A stretch of DNA of 13,908 bases from an uncultured Labedella sp. (lineage in GTDB: Bacteria; Actinomycetota; Actinomycetes; Actinomycetales; Microbacteriaceae), in contig CAKTZW010000015.1 in assembly GCA_934636065.1 (NCBI GenBank), forward strand, positions 1 to 13,908, in the 5' to 3' direction. The position numbers and the translations under genes were made by a program. This document shows positions 1 to 12,029 of the stretch, one piece after another; the first letter of the stretch is position 1, and the number at the start of each line of letters is the position of its first letter. The notes under the pieces were generated by a model. It had not been told where the DNA came from. It did not search any database and saw nothing but the letters and a program-made list of their open reading frames with translations.

Positions 1-809
1 GTGTACACGAGGTTCCCGAGCATCTGGCTCGCGCCGCCGACGATGTTGACGGTGATGTAGTCCCCGAGGGACAGGGAGAAGCTGAAGATCGATCCGGCGA
101 TGATGGCGGGCCAGAGCAGCGGGAGCACGACGGATCGCAGCGTGCGCCACGTCTTCGCTCCGAGGTCCCCCGACGCCTCGAGCAGGCTGTCGGGCACGCG
201 CTCGAGACCGGCGTAGATCGGCATGATCACGTACGGCAGCCAGAGGTACGCGAGCGTGATGACGGTCGCGTGGAGCCCGTAGCCCGGCGTGTTGCCGCCG
301 AACGGGGTCACGAGCCAGTCGATGAGCCCGCCTTCGCTCAGCACCGACCGCCAGGCGTACGCCTTCACGAGGTAGCTCGCCCACAGGGGCATGAGCACGA
401 GGATCACGAGGAGGCGCTGCATGCGCGGCGACGCGACCTTCGCCATGTAGAACGCGATCGGCAGGGCCACCGCGATGTCGATGATCGTGACGAGGATCGC
501 GACCCCCACCGTGCGCAGGGTCACCGCCTGGTACACGGCTCCCGTCAGGACCGTGACGATGTTGTCGAGGTTCCACTCGATGCTCACGGTGCCCGTGAAG
601 CTGTCGACCGTCCAGAACGCCGTGATGAGGAGCGCCGCCAGGGCGGCGACGTACACGAGCCCCAGCCAGAACAGCGGCGCCGTGAGGAGCAGGCCGAGTC
701 GCACCCGCGGGGCGCGGCTCAGGAAGACCGACAGCCGGCGGGCCGCGGTCCCCGAGGGTTCGGGGACCGCGGCGCGCGCGGCCGGTGGCGCGGTCGCGTC
801 ACTCGTCAT
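1..809 (-). CDS. Polyamine-type ABC transporter permease (PotB/PotH-like), partial at left edge
   Basis: Inner-membrane permease of a spermidine/putrescine-type ABC importer. The first ~269 residues are present and the reading frame runs off the left end of the window. After a ~30-residue Ala/Pro-rich cytoplasmic start comes a membrane helix at about residues 38-65. Further hydrophobic segments lie near 98-123, 131-150 and 181-203. The EAA-type loop that contacts the ATPase begins at residue 211 (EASGDLGAKTWRTL), followed by a helix at 228-248 and a GDYITVN stretch near 249. This order matches the first permease of Pot-type systems. The ATG at 809 lies 6 nt after the stop of the upstream ORF, with AAGGG at 820-824 as a weak ribosome site, so the two are probably cotranscribed. 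The gene itself looks intact within the window. The partner binding protein upstream is truncated, so this permease may lack a working receptor. The substrate is inferred from family and neighbourhood. Confidence 0.85.
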   Translation of the reverse strand, partial: MTSDATAPPAARAAVPEPSGTAARRLSVFLSRAPRVRLGLLLTAPLFWLGLVYVAALAALLITAFWTVDSFTGTVSIEWNLDNIVTVLTGAVYQAVTLRTVGVAILVTIIDIAVALPIAFYMAKVASPRMQRLLVILVLMPLWASYLVKAYAWRSVLSEGGLIDWLVTPFGGNTPGYGLHATVITLAYLWLPYVIMPIYAGLERVPDSLLEASGDLGAKTWRTLRSVVLPLLWPAIIAGSIFSFSLSLGDYITVNIVGGASQMLGNLVY

Positions 810-815
810 GCGGCA

Positions 816-1364
816 TCAGCCCTTGATCTCCTGCCACGCGGACGTCCATGCCGCGTAGTCGGTGCACTCGACGTCGGTGCGGCCGTCGAGGCACTCGGCG
901 ATCGGCGTCGACCAGTACCAGATCTGCGACGCGTACTCCTCGTCGCCCGCGTGGTACAGCTCGCACTGTCCCTCGGAGCGGAACTCGCACGCCGCATCGT
1001 TCGAGGGGGCCTCACCGAAGTACTCGGTCGCCTGCGCGTTCGCCTCCGGGCTCGCGATGTAGTCGAGCCACGCGTACGCGCAGCTCGGGTTCTCGGCCTC
1101 CGAGCCGATCATCCAGTTGACCAATTCGCATGCCTTCACTCGCCACGACACGGGTACCCCATCCCACGAGTCTTCCCCGTGGAACATCTCCCAAGCGTGA
1201 AACTCCGTACGCGCGGAGAAGTTCCCCACGTTGTCGGCGACGAGTTCCGCGATACCGTTCAGTCCTCGTTCGTTTGCGCGGATGGAGTCGTCGTCGACGA
1301 TCAGACCTCCGAAGAAGTAGTAATCGCTCCCTCGAGCTGACTCGTCCACGAAGACGGCTCGCAC
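816..1364 (-). pseudogene. Chimeric ORF: DUF3800 N-terminus fused to C-terminus of PotD-like substrate-binding protein
   Basis: This is an open frame of 182 residues made of two unrelated halves. Residues 1-82 look like the start of a DUF3800 protein: an FVDES motif at 5-9, a YYFFGGLIVDDD strand at 15-26 and an EFHAWEMFHG motif near 54-63. Residues 83-182 match the last ~100 residues of actinobacterial PotD-type binding proteins: WMIGSEAENPSC, ASPEANAQATEYFGEAPSN, WYWSTPIAECLDGRTDV and a final WQEIKG. About 290 N-terminal residues of the binding protein are missing, including its lipoprotein signal. The C-terminal part of DUF3800 is also missing. Codon use changes at the junction: 22 of the first 81 codons end in A or T, against 4 of the last 100. 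The start is GTG at 1364, because an in-frame TAG lies at 1374-1376. The ORF is probably a non-functional remnant, although it could still be translated. An assembly chimera is the main alternative. Confidence 0.75.
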
Positions 1365-1432
1365 GGCATCGACCTATTCGACCGAGGCATTCGCGTCGGC
1401 GATTCCACAGAAGTCGATGGCGGCGCGGCGCA
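1365..1432 (-). other. Short spacer, probably part of the imported segment
   Basis: These 68 nt lie between the APC permease stop and the GTG start of the chimeric ORF. In one minus frame a tiny ORF starts at the ATG overlapping the permease stop (TAATG). It encodes about 19 residues ending DANASVE and stops with TAG at 1374-1376, just before the DUF3800 start. It may be the 3' tail of a gene that once preceded DUF3800, or chance coding. I see no terminal inverted repeat, target-site duplication or attachment-like core, so the left edge of the imported DNA can only be placed somewhere in this interval. Confidence 0.3.
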
Positions 1433-2971
1433 TTAGGCGAGGGCGTCGACCTCCGTGTCCTCGCGACCGTCGGACGCCCCGACCGTGAGCGTCTCGCCTC
1501 GGAAGAACCCGGGCCGGCGGACGCGCTGCACGATCATGATGGCGGCCCCGAGGAGGATGACCGTCACGCCGAGGATGAAGACGAGTCCGACCCCGCCGAT
1601 GTTCGATCCCGACCCGTACTCCGGATCCATGCTGTCGAGGAGCGTCGTGACGAACAGCACCGCGAGGATGACACCGCCGACCAGCGGGAAGACGAGTTGG
1701 AAGAGGACGTTGCGGACGGAGCGGAACCACTGGGTGCGGAAGTACCAGACCGCCGCGAACGCCGTGATGCCGTAGTAGAAGCAGATCATCATGCCCAGGG
1801 TCAGGATGGTGTCGCCGAGCACGTTGACGCTCACGAACCGCATCACGGCATAGAAGCCGGCCGCGGCGATCGCCGACACGATCGTGGCGTATCCGGGAGT
1901 GAAGAACCGGGGGTGGACGCGCGAGAAGGCCTCCGGCAGCGCGCCGTAGTGCCCCATCGCGAGGATCGTGCGCGACGGGGAGATCATCGTCGACTGCAGC
2001 GAGGCCGCGGAGCTGGAGAGCACCGCGAGCGAGACCAGCCACGCGAACGGACCCATCACGAGGCCCGACAGGTGGAAGAAGACGTTGCCCTGGATGGTCT
2101 CGTTGCCGAGCCCGTACTCCCCTGTCCCGACGCCGGCGAAGGCGATGAGGGCGACCGCGAGGAGCAGGTACACGACCACGATGATGAGGACGGTTACGGT
2201 CGCCGCCTTGCCCGGCGTGGACGCCGAGCCCTTCGTCTCCTCGTTCATCGTGAGCGTCACGTCCCAGCCCCAGAAGATGAAGATGGACAGGGACAGCCCG
2301 GCGGCCACCGCAGAGAACGACTCGATCGCGAACGGGTTGAACCAGGAGGCGTCGACGGATGTCGCGTCGAACGCCGATCCGTTCGCGACGTGGACGAAGG
2401 CGGCGATCGCGAAGACCACGAGCACAACGAGCTGGAAGCCGACGAGCGCGTACTGGACCTTCTGCGTCGTCTGCATGTCGCGGTACGAGATCCACGTCGC
2501 GGCGAGGACGAAGACGAGGCACGTCGCCACGTTGATCACCGGGTTCGCGGTGAGGTCGGCGATGGACGCGTCGCCCGTCATCTGCGCGATGAGGAGGTAG
2601 AGGAAGTCGACGGCCACGCCGGCGAGGTTCGACAGCACGATGATCGTCGCGGCGATGAGACCCCACCCGGCCATCCAGCCCACGTAGGGCCCGAACGCTC
2701 GCGTCGCCCACGTGAACGACGTGCCGCTGTCCGACATCGACCGGTTGAGCTCGCGGTAGCCGAACGCGACGAGCAGCATCGGGATGAACCCCACCAGGAT
2801 GACGGCGGGCACCTGCACGCCGACGACGGACGCCGTCGGGCCGATGGCGGCGGTGAACGTGTAGGCGGGCGCGATGCACGAGATGCCGATGACGATGGCG
2901 CCGATGAGCCCGACGGTGCCGGCACCGAGCCCCTTCTTCGACAGGCCCGAGGACTGCTGCTGCGTGGACAT
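1433..2971 (-). CDS. APC-superfamily amino acid/polyamine permease
   Basis: Secondary transporter of 512 residues, the usual length for amino acid-polyamine-organocation permeases with about 12 membrane helices. The first helix (residues ~17-37, GTVGLIGAIVIGISCIAPAY) carries the Gly-rich unwound stretch typical of APC substrate sites. It is followed by a conserved segment at ~80-103 containing SDSGTSFTWATRAFGPYVGW. Successive hydrophobic segments continue to a short charged tail ending EVDALA. Putrescine or GABA uptake is the likeliest role, because the gene closes a run encoding an amine oxidase, GabD and GabT. The substrate cannot be read from sequence. I chose the ATG at 2971 over the in-frame ATG at 2980, because GAAGGA at 2980-2985 sits 8 nt before 2971 but abuts 2980. 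The ribosome site touches the stop of the upstream usp gene, which implies translational coupling. Confidence 0.85.
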   Translation of the reverse strand: MSTQQQSSGLSKKGLGAGTVGLIGAIVIGISCIAPAYTFTAAIGPTASVVGVQVPAVILVGFIPMLLVAFGYRELNRSMSDSGTSFTWATRAFGPYVGWMAGWGLIAATIIVLSNLAGVAVDFLYLLIAQMTGDASIADLTANPVINVATCLVFVLAATWISYRDMQTTQKVQYALVGFQLVVLVVFAIAAFVHVANGSAFDATSVDASWFNPFAIESFSAVAAGLSLSIFIFWGWDVTLTMNEETKGSASTPGKAATVTVLIIVVVYLLLAVALIAFAGVGTGEYGLGNETIQGNVFFHLSGLVMGPFAWLVSLAVLSSSAASLQSTMISPSRTILAMGHYGALPEAFSRVHPRFFTPGYATIVSAIAAAGFYAVMRFVSVNVLGDTILTLGMMICFYYGITAFAAVWYFRTQWFRSVRNVLFQLVFPLVGGVILAVLFVTTLLDSMDPEYGSGSNIGGVGLVFILGVTVILLGAAIMIVQRVRRPGFFRGETLTVGASDGREDTEVDALA

Positions 2972-2976
2972 CGTCG

Positions 2977-3849
2977 TCATCCTTCGATCGTGAGGACCGA
3001 CTCGCGGGGGACCACGACCATCGGCACGGGCAGTTCGCGCAGCATCTTCGCCGCGGTGGTGCCGAGGAACAGGTGTCCGGAGGCGGCCAGGCGGGAGGAG
3101 CCGACGAGGACGATCTCCTCCGGGTCCCACACGACGGAGGCCACGGCGTCCTCGACGCGCGTGCCGGTCGCGATGACGACCTCGACGTCGGTCCCGTCGG
3201 GCAGGTGCCGCCGGGCGTAGTCGCGCACCGTCGCCGCGTGCTCCTCCGCGGCCGTCCGGGCGACCTCGGCCGGGTCCGCTCGGCGGTCGAGCGTGACGAG
3301 CGACAGCAGCCGGAGCGGAACGGCGGCCCCCGACGCGGCGAGGATCGCGGCGTCGAGGAGCTGCTCGGCACCGGCACGCGTTCCGACGGCCGCCGTGACC
3401 CGGGAGAGCTTCGTCGTCTCGAGCTTGCGGATGCCGCGCGGCGCGAGCGCGACGGGCACGACGGCCGAGTGCAACAGCGCGCGGGAGACCGTCCCGATCG
3501 TGTAACGGCCGCGGATCCCGTCGCTCGCACCTCCGACGACGATCATCGACCCCTCGAGGTCGCGGGAGGCGTCGAGCAGTCCCTCGGCGAGGGAATCGGC
3601 GTGCACGATGTGCGTGTCGGCGTCGACGTCCTCGGGAACGCGCGACCGCGCCTTCGCGAGCCACTGCTCCGCGAGCTCCTCGACGTAGCGGTCGTACGAC
3701 GGCGACGCGGGGACGAGCGTCGCGCGGTGCTCGCTCGCCAGGACGAGCACGATCTCGAGACGCGCGCCGCGGGCGCGGGCCATCCGCACGCCGAGCGCGA
3801 GCGCATCCCTGCCGGCGGGGGTATCGGTGTAGCCGACGATGAACCTCAT
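2977..3849 (-). CDS. Tandem-domain universal stress protein (UspA family)
   Basis: Cytoplasmic protein of 290 residues with two Usp domains, about 1-138 and 148-290. Each ends in a nucleotide-binding signature of the form G-x2-G-x9-G-S/T: GGASDGIRGRYTIGT at 106-120 and GSSRLAASGHLFLGT at 250-264. ATP binding is therefore plausible in both halves, though the second has weaker spacing. Family members bind ATP or cAMP and modulate stress or transport functions. Actinobacterial operons often place one beside an APC permease, which suggests a role in regulating transport; that role is inference. I chose the ATG at 3849 because it gives the canonical MRFIVGYT start with AAGGA just upstream. An alternative ATG at 3912, next to the amine oxidase stop, would add 21 residues unlike the family. 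Its TGA lies within the ribosome-site region of the permease gene. Confidence 0.88.
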   Translation of the reverse strand: MRFIVGYTDTPAGRDALALGVRMARARGARLEIVLVLASEHRATLVPASPSYDRYVEELAEQWLAKARSRVPEDVDADTHIVHADSLAEGLLDASRDLEGSMIVVGGASDGIRGRYTIGTVSRALLHSAVVPVALAPRGIRKLETTKLSRVTAAVGTRAGAEQLLDAAILAASGAAVPLRLLSLVTLDRRADPAEVARTAAEEHAATVRDYARRHLPDGTDVEVVIATGTRVEDAVASVVWDPEEIVLVGSSRLAASGHLFLGTTAAKMLRELPVPMVVVPRESVLTIEG

Positions 3850-3912
3850 TGTTCCTTCTTCCGTCTTCGGGCCGTCAGTGATCCGACCGGCAACCGCGGT
3901 CCACGACGTCAT

Positions 3913-5277
3913 TCAGGCGAGCGTGGCGGCGATCTCCTCGGCCGTCAAGCGTCCCATCCGGATGGCGCCGTCGACGTGCTGGTACCCCTCGGCCGCGACG
4001 TCGCTGCACGACCAGAAGATCGAGCCGACGGGCGTGCGCTGGTCCGCCCCGTACCGGGAGAGCCCGCCGAGGTCGAAGCTCGCGGCGTATGCCCCGCGCG
4101 TCCACTCCTCGGCACCCCAGTCGCTCTCGTAGTACACGACGGGTTCGAGAGCCCGGGGTCCGTAGTACGCCGCGAGTGACTCGAGGATGCGGCGCTTGCG
4201 CTCCTCAGCCGGGAGCGCGAAGACGGCGTCCGCCTTGACGTCCGACACGAATCCGACGAGCGTCCCGCGTTCGTCGCCGTGGTTCGTGTTGTCGTAGGCC
4301 TCGTGGACGAGCTGGTAGGGACTGAACGCCGTGCCGGAGAGTCCGGCCTCGCGCCAGAACGGCGTCGCGTACACGGCGTGCACCTTGATGACGAGGCCGA
4401 GCGACAGGTGCTGGTGCAGCTGCTGTTGGCGACGGGGCAGCGCCGGTTCGAACGCGATCCGGGTGTAGAGGTTCGGCGGAACGGCGACCACGGCCCGGCG
4501 GGCCGTGACCGTGACGCCGTCCGCGTAGGCGGTGACGGTGTCCTCGCTCCACGCGAGCCGACGGACGGGGGCACCGAGGTGCACGGCGTCCCCGAGCGCC
4601 TCGGCGAGCCGGATCGGCACCTGCTGCAGGCCGCCGGCGACGCGCTTGTCGAGGATGTAGTCGGCGTCCACGAGGTGCGAGAAGCTCCCGGCCGAGGCCG
4701 CCATGAGGATCGCCTGCAGCGCGGAGAAGGCGTGGGACGGCTTCGTGAGCATCGCCTCGGCGATGAACAGCGCGATATTGTCGCGGGCCTCGACGTCATC
4801 GGTCTGCTGCCTCAGCCACTCGCTCCACGAGATCGCGTCGAGCTCCGCGGCCTTCTCGTGAGCCCACGGCTCGGTCGCCCCGATCTCGGCGGTGAGGGAG
4901 TCGAGGAGCGCGATGAGCCGCTCCATCTCCTTCTGCGTCTCGGCGGCCACGGGGAAGAGGTCGCCCGTGAAGCGCGTCAGTCCCCCGGCGGCGTCGACGT
5001 AGACGCTGTCGCCGTCGCGGTAGCGCGAGTAGGTCTCGAGGCCCAGCTCGTCGAGCGTCTCGAGCAGCGCCGTCTGGTCGGGCGAGACCCACTGGCCGCC
5101 CAGCTCGAGCAGGGCGCCGTCGATCGTCTCGGTCCAGAGGCGTCCGCCGACGCGGTCGCGCGCCTCGAGGACGGCGACCGAGTGGCCGGCGGCCTTCAGC
5201 TTCGTCGCCGCGGTGAGGCCGGACGCTCCCGCTCCGATGATGACGACGTCGACGTCGATGTTCTGGGTGTCGGCCAT
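3913..5277 (-). CDS. puo: Flavin amine oxidase, probable putrescine oxidase
   Basis: FAD-dependent amine oxidase of 454 residues, close to the length of actinobacterial putrescine oxidases. It would oxidise putrescine with O2 to 4-aminobutanal, ammonia and H2O2. The N-terminal dinucleotide fold has GAGASG at 15-20, an acidic residue in VLEARD near 38 that binds ribose, and the RVGGR motif at 42-46. LELGGQWV follows. The C-terminal flavin segment has GYQHVDGAIRMG near 431-442, the usual end of this family. I see no signal peptide, so it should be cytoplasmic. The start at 5277 is supported by GAAGGA at 5287-5292, 9 nt upstream; longer upstream frames lack the fold. The gene lies 49 nt after gabD and 63 nt before usp on the same strand. 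Substrate preference for putrescine over tyramine or another monoamine is inferred from the gabT/gabD context. H2O2 would be a by-product. Confidence 0.82.
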   Translation of the reverse strand: MADTQNIDVDVVIIGAGASGLTAATKLKAAGHSVAVLEARDRVGGRLWTETIDGALLELGGQWVSPDQTALLETLDELGLETYSRYRDGDSVYVDAAGGLTRFTGDLFPVAAETQKEMERLIALLDSLTAEIGATEPWAHEKAAELDAISWSEWLRQQTDDVEARDNIALFIAEAMLTKPSHAFSALQAILMAASAGSFSHLVDADYILDKRVAGGLQQVPIRLAEALGDAVHLGAPVRRLAWSEDTVTAYADGVTVTARRAVVAVPPNLYTRIAFEPALPRRQQQLHQHLSLGLVIKVHAVYATPFWREAGLSGTAFSPYQLVHEAYDNTNHGDERGTLVGFVSDVKADAVFALPAEERKRRILESLAAYYGPRALEPVVYYESDWGAEEWTRGAYAASFDLGGLSRYGADQRTPVGSIFWSCSDVAAEGYQHVDGAIRMGRLTAEEIAATLA

Positions 5278-5326
5278 CGTGGTCGGTCCTTCTCTCGTTC
5301 GGGTTCGTGTGAGGCGGGGCGTGGAG

Positions 5327-6787
5327 TCAGGAGACGGGGGTGAGGGTGTACTTCGTGGAGAGGTACTCGTGGATGCCCTCGAAGCCGCCCTCCCGGCCGA
5401 CACCCGACTGCTTGACGCCGCCGAAGGGCGCCGCCGCGTTCGAGATGACGCCGACGTTGAGTCCCATCATCCCGGTCTCGAGTCGGTCGATCATGCGGTG
5501 ACCGCGCCCGAGGTTCTCCGTGAAGACGTAGCTGACGAGACCGTACTCGGTGTCGTTCGCGAGCCGGACGGCCTCCTCCTCGGTGTCGAAGGTGGCGATC
5601 GCGAGCACCGGGCCGAAGATCTCCTCGCGGAGGATCTGCGCGTCGCGCGTCACTCCTGTGACCACCGTCGGCTCGAAGAACGTCCCGTCACCCTCGATCG
5701 CGTTGCCACCGGTCGTGACGGTCGCGCCCTTCGACACGGCGTCACCCACGAGCTCCTCCGCCTTGTTCACGGCGTTCTCGTCGATGAGCGGGCCGATCAC
5801 GACGCCGTCCTCCGTACCGCGGCCGATCGCAAGACCCTTCACCCTCTCGGTCACCCGCCGAGCGAACTCCTCCGCGACGGACGAGTGCACGATGAAGCGG
5901 TTCGCGGCGGTGCAGGCCTGGCCGATGTTGCGGAACTTGGCCGCGATGGCGCCGTCGACGGCCTTGTCCAGGTCGGCGTCGTCGAACACGACGAACGGCG
6001 CGTTGCCGCCGAGCTCCATCGAGGTGCGGAGGACGCCTTCCGCGGCCTGCGCGATGAGCTTCTTGCCCACGCCGGTCGACCCCGTGAAGCTGAGCTTCCG
6101 CAGCCGCGGGTCGGCGATGATCGGCTCGGACACCGCGCCGGAGCTCGTCGTCTGCACGACGTTCACGACCCCCTTCGGCAGCCCGGCCTCCTCGAGGATA
6201 TTCACGAACGCGATGGTCGTGAGGGGCGTGAGGGCTGCGGGCTTCACCACGACGGTGCACCCGGCGGCGAGCGCCGGCGCGATCTTGCGCGTCGCCATGG
6301 CGAGCGGGAAGTTCCACGGCGTGATGAAGTAGCACGGCCCGACGGGCAGCTGGCTCACGATCATGTGGCCGGTCCCCTCGGGGTTGAGGCCGTAGCGGCC
6401 GGTGATGCGCACGGCCTCCTCGCTGAACCAGCGCAGGAACTCACCGCCGTAGGCGATCTCGCCGGCGGACTCCGCGAGCGGCTTGCCCATCTCGAGCGTC
6501 ATGAGGAGGGCGATGTCCTGCTTGCGCTCCTGCAGCAGATCGAAGGCCGTGCGGAGGATGTTGGAGCGCGTGCGCGGTGGCGTGTTCGCCCACTCCTCCT
6601 GGGCGGCGACGGCCGCGTCGAGGGCCGCGATGCCGTCGGCGGCGCTCGCGTCCGCGATCGTCGCGATGGTCGCGCCCGTCGAGGGGTCGGTGACGTCGAA
6701 CGTCTTCCCGCCCTCGGCGTCACGCCACTCCCCACCGATGTAGAGGCCGGTGGGGATGCTCGCGAGGAGCTCCTGCTCTGTCGTCAT
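5327..6787 (-). CDS. gabD: NAD(P)-dependent aldehyde dehydrogenase, succinate-semialdehyde dehydrogenase type
   Basis: Cytoplasmic dehydrogenase of 486 residues (E. coli GabD is about 482). It oxidises succinate semialdehyde to succinate, the last step of GABA breakdown. Visible catalytic features are PWNFP with Asn159, cofactor Lys182 in VKPA, the nucleotide loop FTGSTGVG at 234-241, general base Glu258 in MELGGNAPF, and nucleophile Cys292 in FRNIGQACTAANR. The MELGGNAPF...DDADLDKAVDGA stretch is very GabD-like. It is the only aldehyde dehydrogenase in the window, so it may also oxidise 4-aminobutanal from the amine oxidase to GABA; that is inference. The start at 6787 is fixed by GGAAGGAA at 6793-6800, 5 nt upstream. 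A TTG at 6802 could start translation but lies within that ribosome site. A long hairpin separates it from gabT. Confidence 0.88.
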   Translation of the reverse strand: MTTEQELLASIPTGLYIGGEWRDAEGGKTFDVTDPSTGATIATIADASAADGIAALDAAVAAQEEWANTPPRTRSNILRTAFDLLQERKQDIALLMTLEMGKPLAESAGEIAYGGEFLRWFSEEAVRITGRYGLNPEGTGHMIVSQLPVGPCYFITPWNFPLAMATRKIAPALAAGCTVVVKPAALTPLTTIAFVNILEEAGLPKGVVNVVQTTSSGAVSEPIIADPRLRKLSFTGSTGVGKKLIAQAAEGVLRTSMELGGNAPFVVFDDADLDKAVDGAIAAKFRNIGQACTAANRFIVHSSVAEEFARRVTERVKGLAIGRGTEDGVVIGPLIDENAVNKAEELVGDAVSKGATVTTGGNAIEGDGTFFEPTVVTGVTRDAQILREEIFGPVLAIATFDTEEEAVRLANDTEYGLVSYVFTENLGRGHRMIDRLETGMMGLNVGVISNAAAPFGGVKQSGVGREGGFEGIHEYLSTKYTLTPVS

Positions 6788-6812
6788 GTCGGTTCCTTCC
6801 AAGAATCACGGT

Positions 6813-6876
6813 CCGTGGGGTGTCGCTTTTCGTTCTCATTCCCGGGCGGAGAGGAACGAAAAGCGACACCTCACGG
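6813..6876 (-). promoter_or_regulatory. Long inverted repeat between gabT and gabD (possible attenuator, processing site or terminator)
   Basis: The arms 6819-6835 and 6854-6870 are perfectly complementary over 17 bp (right arm GAACGAAAAGCGACACC). After one non-Watson-Crick position (6818/6871), pairing continues for 5 bp (CCGTG at 6813-6817 with CACGG at 6872-6876). The stem totals about 23 positions and encloses an 18-nt loop containing CCCGGG. It lies 17 nt after the gabT stop and 25 nt before the gabD start. No run of U follows the stem on the minus strand, so it is not a classic intrinsic terminator. It could stabilise gabT mRNA, reduce read-through into gabD, or be a dispersed repeat. 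Confidence 0.7.
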
Positions 6877-6893
6877 GAGGTAGAGGGGGTGGG

Positions 6894-8261
6894 TCAGGAG
6901 GCGGCGAGCGCCTGCAGGACGACGTCGATTCCCTCGTCGAGGAGGGCGTCCGGGATGGTGAGCGGCGGGAGGAACCGGATGATGTTGCCGTAGGTCCCGC
7001 ACGTGAGGACGATGACGCCCTCGGCGTGCGCCGCCTTCGCGATGCGTCCCGTGAGCGCCGCGTCGGGCTCGTTCGTCTCGGGGTCCACGAACTCGACCGC
7101 GATCATCGCGCCGCGGCCGCGGACGTCCCCGATGCGCGCGTCCGACCCCTGGGCCTCGCGGAACCGGGAGAGCAGCGTGTCGCCGATCGTGCGCGCGCGC
7201 TCGACGAGCCCGTCCTGCTCGTACGTCTCGATCGACGCGAGGGCCGCGGCGCACGCGAGCGGGTTGCCGCCGTACGTGCCGCCGATCCCGCCGGCGTGCG
7301 GCGCATCCATGATCTCCGCACGACCGGTCACCGCGGAGAGGGGCAGCCCGCCCGCGATGCCCTTCGCCGTGACCACGAGATCCGGGACGATGCCCTCGTG
7401 CTCGGAGGCGAACATGTGACCGGTGCGCGCGAAGCCCGTCTGCACCTCGTCGGCGATGAACACGACGTCGTTCGCCCTCGCCCACTCGACGAGAGCGGGG
7501 AGGAAGCCCTCCGCGGGAACGATGAAGCCGCCCTCTCCTTGAATCGGCTCGATGATGATGGCCGCGAGGTTCGCCGCGCCGATCTGCTTCTCGATGAGGG
7601 AGATCGCCCGCTTCGCCGCTTCGGGGCCGGACAGGCCGTCGCGGAAGGGGTACGACATCGGTGCGCGATAGGTCTCGGAGGCGAAGGGGCCGAAGCCGCT
7701 CTTGTAGGGCATCGACTTCGCGGTGAGCGCCATCGTCAGGTTGGTGCGGCCGTGGTAGGCGTGGTCGAACGCGACGACGGCCTGCTTCTTGGTGAACGAC
7801 CGGGCGATCTTCACGGCGTTCTCGACCGCTTCGGCGCCGGAGTTGAACAGGGCGCTGCGCTTGTCGTGGTCGCCGGGGGTGAGACGGTTGAGCGCTTCCG
7901 CGACGGCGACGTACGAGTCGTAGGGCGTGACCATGAAGCACGTGTGCGTGAAGTCGGCGACCTGCTGCTGCACGGCCTCGACCACGCGCGGGGCGCTGTT
8001 GCCGACGCCGGTCACGGCGATGCCGGAGCCGAGGTCGATGAGCGAGTTGCCGTCGACGTCGACGACGACCCCGCCACCCGCGCGGGCGGCGAAGACCGGC
8101 ACCGTCGTGCCGACGGCGGCGGACACCGCTGACAGCTTGCGTTTCATGAGGTCGCGCGAGATCGGACCGGGCAGCTCCGTGACGATCCGGCGCTCCTGCG
8201 CGAGCTCGTCGCGCTCGAGCGGACGTCCGACGGTGCCCGTCGCTGCGGTGTCGATGGCCAT
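6894..8261 (-). CDS. gabT: 4-aminobutyrate--2-oxoglutarate transaminase
   Basis: PLP-dependent class-III aminotransferase of 455 residues. It moves the amino group of GABA to 2-oxoglutarate, giving succinate semialdehyde and glutamate. Visible motifs are the phosphate-binding SGAEAVENA at 141-149, the AYHGRT segment near 168-173, EPIQGEGG at 238-245, the PLP-ring aspartate Asp271 in FIADEVQTGF, and the Schiff-base lysine Lys300 in VVTAKGIAGGLPLSAV. This group is shared by GabT and some 5-aminovalerate transaminases, so the substrate range may be wider. The start at 8261 is supported by GGAGG at 8269-8273, 7 nt upstream. An upstream in-frame start near 8318 would add 19 residues without family character. 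It is first in the catabolic run and divergent from the PucR regulator, with its own promoter candidate. Confidence 0.92.
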   Translation of the reverse strand: MAIDTAATGTVGRPLERDELAQERRIVTELPGPISRDLMKRKLSAVSAAVGTTVPVFAARAGGGVVVDVDGNSLIDLGSGIAVTGVGNSAPRVVEAVQQQVADFTHTCFMVTPYDSYVAVAEALNRLTPGDHDKRSALFNSGAEAVENAVKIARSFTKKQAVVAFDHAYHGRTNLTMALTAKSMPYKSGFGPFASETYRAPMSYPFRDGLSGPEAAKRAISLIEKQIGAANLAAIIIEPIQGEGGFIVPAEGFLPALVEWARANDVVFIADEVQTGFARTGHMFASEHEGIVPDLVVTAKGIAGGLPLSAVTGRAEIMDAPHAGGIGGTYGGNPLACAAALASIETYEQDGLVERARTIGDTLLSRFREAQGSDARIGDVRGRGAMIAVEFVDPETNEPDAALTGRIAKAAHAEGVIVLTCGTYGNIIRFLPPLTIPDALLDEGIDVVLQALAAS

Positions 8262-8268
8262 GCTGCTG

Positions 8269-8273
8269 CCTCC
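8269..8273 (-). promoter_or_regulatory. Ribosome binding site of gabT
   Basis: GGAGG on the minus strand lies 7 nt before the ATG at 8261. It is the strongest ribosome site in the cluster and decides this start over the longer in-frame alternative. Confidence 0.85.
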
Positions 8274-8316
8274 GTGAAGTCGTCCGGGCATCCGGAGCCC
8301 CGGTGCCGCTCCGCCC

Positions 8317-8346
8317 ATGCTAGGAGCGCCATGCGCGCTGCGTCGA
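8317..8346 (-). promoter_or_regulatory. Candidate gabT promoter
   Basis: On the minus strand TAGCAT (8317-8322) resembles a -10 box. TCGACG (8341-8346) is a weak -35 match 18 bp upstream. Transcription would start near 8310, leaving a leader of about 50 nt with a good ribosome site. The weak -35 fits a promoter that depends on an activator. Confidence 0.45.
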
Positions 8347-11165: not shown

Positions 11166-12029
11166 TCAGGAGGTGGTGCGGGTGCGTCCCATCCGGTCGA
11201 GAAGGATGGCCGCGATGAAGACCAAGAGGTACTGGATCGACTGCGTGATCGTGCCGATCAGGGCACCGCGTACGAAGCTCGAGCCGAAGTCGGTGTCGAA
11301 GAGGCTGAACACCGTCGTGAGCAGGAAGAGCCCGGCGGCGCCGAGACCACCGGCGATCAGGGCGCTGCGCAGGAACGCCGACCGCGTCGTCGCTCGCTCG
11401 ATCGGAGAGAGGAAGGCCGCGCCGACGAACGCGAGCGCGGCGAACACGATGGGCTGGATGAAGAAGACCAGCGACTGCGCGACGTACTCGATGCCCAGAC
11501 CGAAGGTGAGGTTACCGAGGGTGGTGAGGATCGAGACGGCCACCGCGACCACGACGACCGCGATCGCTCCGACGAGCGGCTCGCGCAACGAACGCTTCGG
11601 CCGCGGAGCCGCGTACTGCGCGCCCGAGTACTGCTGGCCGTACCCCGCACCCGACGGGTTCTGCTGACCGTAGGGCTGCTGACCCGGCTGCTGCGGATAC
11701 TGCTGGCCGTAGGGCTGGCTCGGCTGACCCGGCTGCTGGCCGTAGGGCTGGCTCGGCTGACCCGGCTGCTGACCGTAGGGCTGGCTCGGCTGACTAGGCT
11801 GGGCCGGCTGACCAGAGGGCTGACCCGGCTGGGCATAGCCCGGCTGGGGTTGCGGCTGCTGACCGTACGGCGCGGACTGCGGCGGCTGTCCGGCCCCCGG
11901 TCCGCCGTACGGCTGCTGCGGCGGGAACGGCTGCTGCCCCGGCTGGTGCTGTTCCGGCTGCTGCGGCGGCTGCTGCGGCGGCTGCTGCGGCCACGGGTTC
12001 TGATTCGCGTTGCCCTGGTCGTTCGTCAT
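11166..12029 (-). CDS. Gln/Pro/Gly-rich membrane protein with four predicted helices, function unknown
   Basis: Protein of 287 residues. Residues 1-145 are low-complexity Gln/Pro/Gly/Tyr with repeated [11 protein letters not shown] units (about 83-110), presumably a disordered cytoplasmic region. The rest is a membrane domain with hydrophobic segments at about 152-172, 183-207, 221-243 and 255-277, and a basic tail ending RMGRTRTTS. No catalytic motif is visible. Actinobacteria commonly carry small membrane proteins with such Pro/Gln-rich leaders, often annotated as hypothetical or as resembling DUF4870-like proteins; I cannot assign a family. The ATG at 12029 has no ribosome site but has TAGGCT at 12036-12041, so it fits a leaderless start. 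It converges on the CPBP protease gene and lies 59 nt after the fprA stop. The leader's repeated codons explain long shadow frames here. Confidence 0.8.
11701..11799 (-). repeat. Three tandem 33-bp repeats coding for an 11-residue unit
   Basis: Units at 11701-11733 and 11734-11766 are identical. The unit at 11767-11799 differs at a few bases (for example GACC for GGCC and ACTAGG for ACCCGG). The unit is in frame and encodes the [11 protein letters not shown] repeat of the Q/P-rich protein. Exact identity of two copies suggests recent slippage or strong homogenisation. Confidence 0.9.

Follow-up and report, generated by a model that had tools for sequence, protein, structure and literature searches.

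Chimeric pseudogenes can arise by deletion between two genes. The open reading frame described here lies on the minus strand (1364-816) of the window, the 13,908-nucleotide stretch that we analysed; it has a GTG start and 182 codons plus a stop, and is very probably a deletion scar that joins the remnants of two genes. It is like other deletion-made chimeric pseudogenes in its two truncated parents, its abrupt change of composition and the absence of neighbouring genes, and differs from them in that the frame happens to stay open across the join. A literature search found no closely comparable published case of such a chimeric pseudogene.

The two parent families are the PotD/PotF/YdcS-type polyamine-binding proteins (PF13416, NF041888) and DUF3800 (PF12686). 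The binding-protein relatives include solved structures (6nlp, PotF 1a99 and PotD 1pot), of which 6nlp aligns with residues 42-368 of an intact 392-aa relative. DUF3800 is described as an RNase H fold with a catalytic rearrangement (PMC10910872); by sequence, no convincing solved relative of DUF3800 was found (best E = 0.046). Residues 1-82 of the fusion align with DUF3800 proteins from their native start, including the VDES and EFHxxxMFHG motifs, and residues 83-182 correspond to the C-terminal 100 residues of the binding proteins. The pieces and their neighbours are laid out as follows.

3..809, minus strand: polyamine-type ABC permease I, running off the window (PotH/PotB-type matches below curated cut-offs; PF00528)
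816..1119, minus strand: the final 100 codons, with the stop, of a gene for a PotD/YdcS-type polyamine-binding protein (over 100 residues 94% identical to Labedella phragmitis L001; at the DNA level the match to both L001 and L113 stops at 1119)
1120..1364, minus strand: the first 82 codons of a DUF3800 gene, from its GTG start onward (17 DUF3800 proteins at 54-70% identity; alignment A1)
1365..1432, minus strand: unassigned stretch that separates the DUF3800 start from the stop codon of the APC gene and presumably belongs to the DUF3800 side (no long match in 398 family genomes or the plasmid collection)
1433..2971, minus strand: APC-family permease gene (PF13520, E = 1.2e-23; DNA match to L113 reaches 1446; stop codons collinear)

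Neither half is a complete domain. The front keeps 82 of the approximately 235 residues of a DUF3800 protein; the rear two thirds, about 150 C-terminal residues that include the ADDHHSA and LLQAADVATYF stretches, are gone. Missing from the back half are residues 1-292 of the 392-residue relative encoded in L113, including the start region with its lipobox-like LLAGC (read by eye), so that the fusion has neither an export signal with a lipobox nor both lobes of a polyamine-binding protein. Given to Pfam separately, the halves score 13.3 bits for DUF3800 (E = 0.13, cut-off 21, profile positions 2-43 of 149) and 14.2 bits for SBP_bac_8 (E = 0.038, cut-off 27). When the whole 182-aa protein is given, DUF3800 is absent from the list, appearing only for the front alone, and SBP_bac_8 falls to 12.3 bits, again under its curated cut-off. 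The NCBIfam YdcS model matches the fusion over residues 85-177 only (E = 2.1e-7, 30.1 bits, cut-off 725), and a full-length DUF3800 protein (P0102) scores 43.9 on PF12686. In the profile checks proposed in the preliminary description, both halves thus stay below the curated cut-offs.

Since both Pfam profiles stay under their cut-offs, it is homology searches that settle the identity of the two families. With residues 1-84 as query, 17 of the 18 listed matches are DUF3800 proteins, 231-247 aa long and 54-70% identical, which upholds the DUF3800 assignment of the front. Residues 83-182 match binding proteins at up to 94% identity, with the best genome match in L. phragmitis; among the matches listed, most relatives with a named source are annotated as putative spermidine/putrescine transport binding proteins. 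In alignment A1 the apparent matches of the binding-protein part to DUF3800 are forced. The preliminary reading of one frame with a DUF3800 front and a PotD-like back is therefore borne out by the homologues.

A frame of this kind could also come from one conserved family of 182-aa proteins whose likeness to two others is superficial, a reading that the homologues leave barely credible. We examined the best 120 of the 150 matches to the whole frame and, adding the matches to residues 1-84, compared 132 homologues with the halves taken separately: 20 match the front only, 111 the back only and one matches both. That one protein, P0001, is the fusion of the window itself, beginning at an internal start and so covering residues 6-182. 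The conserved family, which the preliminary description had named as a contrary outcome, is not found among these 132 proteins and is refuted as far as searches covering 120 of the 150 matches can reach.

The composition of the frame changes where the families change. A recount gave A/T-ending codons at 22 of the first 81 positions and 4 of the following 101, confirming the contrast reported earlier; the best single change point falls after codon 80, and a split at codon 82 (22/82 versus 4/100) gives a Fisher p of 1.1e-5. GC content is 59% in the DUF3800 part (1116-1364) and 68% in the binding-protein part (816-1115). At the nucleotide level the two pieces join at about 1119/1120, within the interval first suggested (near residue 82, about 1113-1125). 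The window reads GGTCAACTGGATG here, versus CGACAACTGGATG in L001 and L113, and the match to binding-protein DNA sets in with one C, at 1119. In alignment A1, at least 90% of the DUF3800 relatives have Ala at the residue next to the join; with these relatives standing in for the true DUF3800 parent, the two parents therefore likely share about one base at the join.

The nature of the join bears on whether it exists in the organism at all, as it could be a chimera of assembly or library preparation. In two metagenome proteins, P0018 and P0061, the same end of the binding protein follows the front of an ABC ATPase and a LacI-type front, with the switch at the sequence LDYIASPEAN; they are probably assembler chimeras formed via this shared word, suggesting that false joins do occur in the database. 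The join in the window, however, seems to lack a shared word, the parents probably having about one base in common at most, and an artefact would need two false joins about 0.3 kb apart. The same sequence is also found as P0001 on a contig of 1,569 bases, which is another record, as that contig is shorter than the window, but may stem from the same sample. We consider an artefactual join unlikely.

Evidence for a deletion comes from close relatives. Other genes of the window match genomes of the L. phragmitis genus at 81-89% DNA identity, which makes a Labedella or a close relation the most likely host, and we searched the region 816-3000 in four of these genomes (G001, G005, G006 and G007). 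The DNA match to L001, from L. phragmitis (G001), and to L113, from G006, runs from window position 1 to 1119 and then stops. L113 aligns again, in pieces, with 1446-8184 of the window; its position 3070 corresponds to window 1119 and its position 6693 to window 1446, so that 3,622 bases lie there between the two edges versus 326 in the window. In G006 the APC permease, two plus-strand genes, an ATPase, an intact 392-aa binding protein and permease I follow in a row, the APC permease sharing its strand with the binding-protein end and being separated from it by 3.6 kb; the comparison proposed earlier, with close relatives for an intact binding-protein gene, thus found one. Besides the remainder of the binding protein, the gap in L113 encodes an ABC ATPase that has a TOBE domain; a GntR/FCD regulator and a PDC-sensor-like protein are encoded there on the other strand. 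Open frames corresponding to all four (binding protein, ATPase, GntR/FCD regulator and PDC-sensor-like protein) are also present in L001. The preliminary description recognized the loss of the 3' end of one gene and the 5' end of the other; both ends are gone, and the loss looks larger than proposed, the ATPase gene and its two neighbours also being missing relative to both L001 and G006. The APC stop codon is collinear with that of L113, with different last codons, and in this alignment it marks the far limit of the replaced stretch.

Long binding-protein frames are the rule in other genomes. At 77 of 80 loci, the matched part is preceded in frame by at least 250 binding-protein codons that include a start; the exceptions are L072 (a partial match), L073 (at a contig edge) and L076 (211 codons). 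At L072, in Cryobacterium sp. M96, only the last 61 residues match, preceded by 44 open codons, possibly another truncated binding-protein gene. Within the genus, a close orthologue of the binding protein is present in two of the four genomes (G001 and G006) and was not found in G005 and G007, where the best match is 28% (the completeness of these genomes is not given). In G005 (L114 after 6960) unrelated frames of opposite orientation, not a polyamine operon, come after the APC gene, which indicates that the locus is variable. In L. phragmitis, a universal-stress gene match ends at L001 position 2192 and a 67-base APC match follows directly; at this place (about 2190-2270) most of the APC gene seems to have been lost in a further deletion.

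From this layout, most of a polyamine-importer gene cluster appears to be gone from this locus in the Labedella relative sampled here, although an ATPase or a binding protein may be encoded elsewhere in its genome. The parents, the two edges and the genes missing relative to two relatives are documented by these alignments; from them we infer that the missing genes were ancestrally present at this place, as well as the order of events, the type of recombination, the lack of function and the coupling to the permease discussed below. A DUF3800 gene of accessory origin would have been present, or have arrived, immediately downstream of the APC permease gene. Illegitimate recombination would then have deleted the rear of DUF3800, both plus-strand genes, the gene for the ABC ATPase and the binding-protein gene up to its last quarter, and the two cut ends would have met in frame, a chance of one in three. 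The intact genes across the gap in G006 (L113) fit a chimeric relic made by deletion. The earlier proposal that foreign DUF3800 DNA was followed by a deletion into the binding-protein gene accords with this layout; the sequence of insertion and deletion is its more conjectural part.

The origin of the DUF3800 gene was sought more widely. DUF3800 was detected in none of the four genomes of the genus, with the positive control (G182) detected, and a match is present in 24 of 299 sampled family genomes, many of them distant. At the DNA level, window 1110-1440 is matched in 15 of 398 family genomes, in four of them over 83-193 bases of the DUF3800 part at 66-74% identity and in the rest over 24-42 bases; none of the 398 has a long match over 1365-1432. 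Since the searches gave nothing closer to the DUF3800 gene than 70% identity, its foreign origin and the two-step order fall short of proof. tRNA genes lie within 1.5 kb of the DUF3800 match at three of the eight loci scanned for RNA families (L093, L094 and L095), which would fit an accessory gene. Legionella DUF3800 genes are described as lying in variable regions (PMC7811196).

Several candidate vehicles and associated elements were rejected. No match to window 1100-1450 was found by blastn in 72,556 plasmid records, a DNA-level search, and none to the 83-residue DUF3800 piece by tblastn in 50,697 phage records. As for insertion-element signatures, positions 1000-1600 contain no direct-repeat families and five inverted pairs of 11-15 nt. 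Rfam families named DUF3800-I and DUF3800-IX exist (PMC11701678); window 1100-1500 gave two unrelated sub-threshold matches only (E up to 10), and no Rfam family reaches its gathering score anywhere in the window.

Could the 182-aa protein nevertheless be expressed and selected, either as a small cytoplasmic protein with a new role or as a leader to which translation of the orphaned permease genes is coupled? The frame is open, the DUF3800 start is kept, and permease I starts 6 bases past the fusion stop, just as far as it lies from the intact binding-protein gene in L113. Permease I has no clear decay: between the window and L001, dN is 0.037 and dS 0.48 (15 of 269 residues changed), and between L001 and L113 dN is 0.030 and dS 0.47 (13 of 269). 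Against a selected function, each half is only a fragment, with no counterpart to the DUF3800 stretches ADDHHSA and LLQAADVATYF, and no other strain has the fusion among the 132 proteins compared. We regard a functional fusion as highly improbable. Lacking an export signal, the front three quarters of a binding protein and the rear two thirds of DUF3800, the fusion is most likely non-functional; a third of an RNase H fold would not be expected to work. Under the deletion-scar reading, the product, if made, would be a cytoplasmic protein without a signal peptide, a lipobox, most of the binding-protein fold and about 150 DUF3800 residues, and at most its translation would feed into the permease gene.

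Against the deletion-scar reading count the lack of clear decay in permease I and the conservation of the retained binding-protein piece. The piece is still well conserved, yet more changed than between the intact relatives: dN is 0.026 and dS 0.42 between the window and L001 (6 of 99 residues changed), versus a dN of 0.009 (2 of 99 residues) between L001 and L113. Five of the six changes fall in the first dozen residues past the join. These changes may reflect loosened selection or ordinary divergence, and the substitution numbers, which are small, fit a recent event with or without loosened selection.

Positions 3913-8318 of the window (minus strand) encode a protein that by eye resembles FAD amine oxidases, with no NCBIfam match at 1e-20, an SSADH-like aldehyde dehydrogenase and a 4-aminobutyrate transaminase, likely a putrescine/GABA breakdown group beside the transporters. 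Farther along, 11166-12029 (minus strand) encodes a 287-aa protein with a Q/P-rich N-terminus containing repeated units (by eye). A functional linkage between DUF3800 and polyamine transport should not be inferred from the fusion, as this two-family reading frame is not a domain fusion. The locus appears to be that of a polyamine ABC importer in the course of being dismantled, next to the APC permease gene and the genes for GABA transaminase and aldehyde dehydrogenase.
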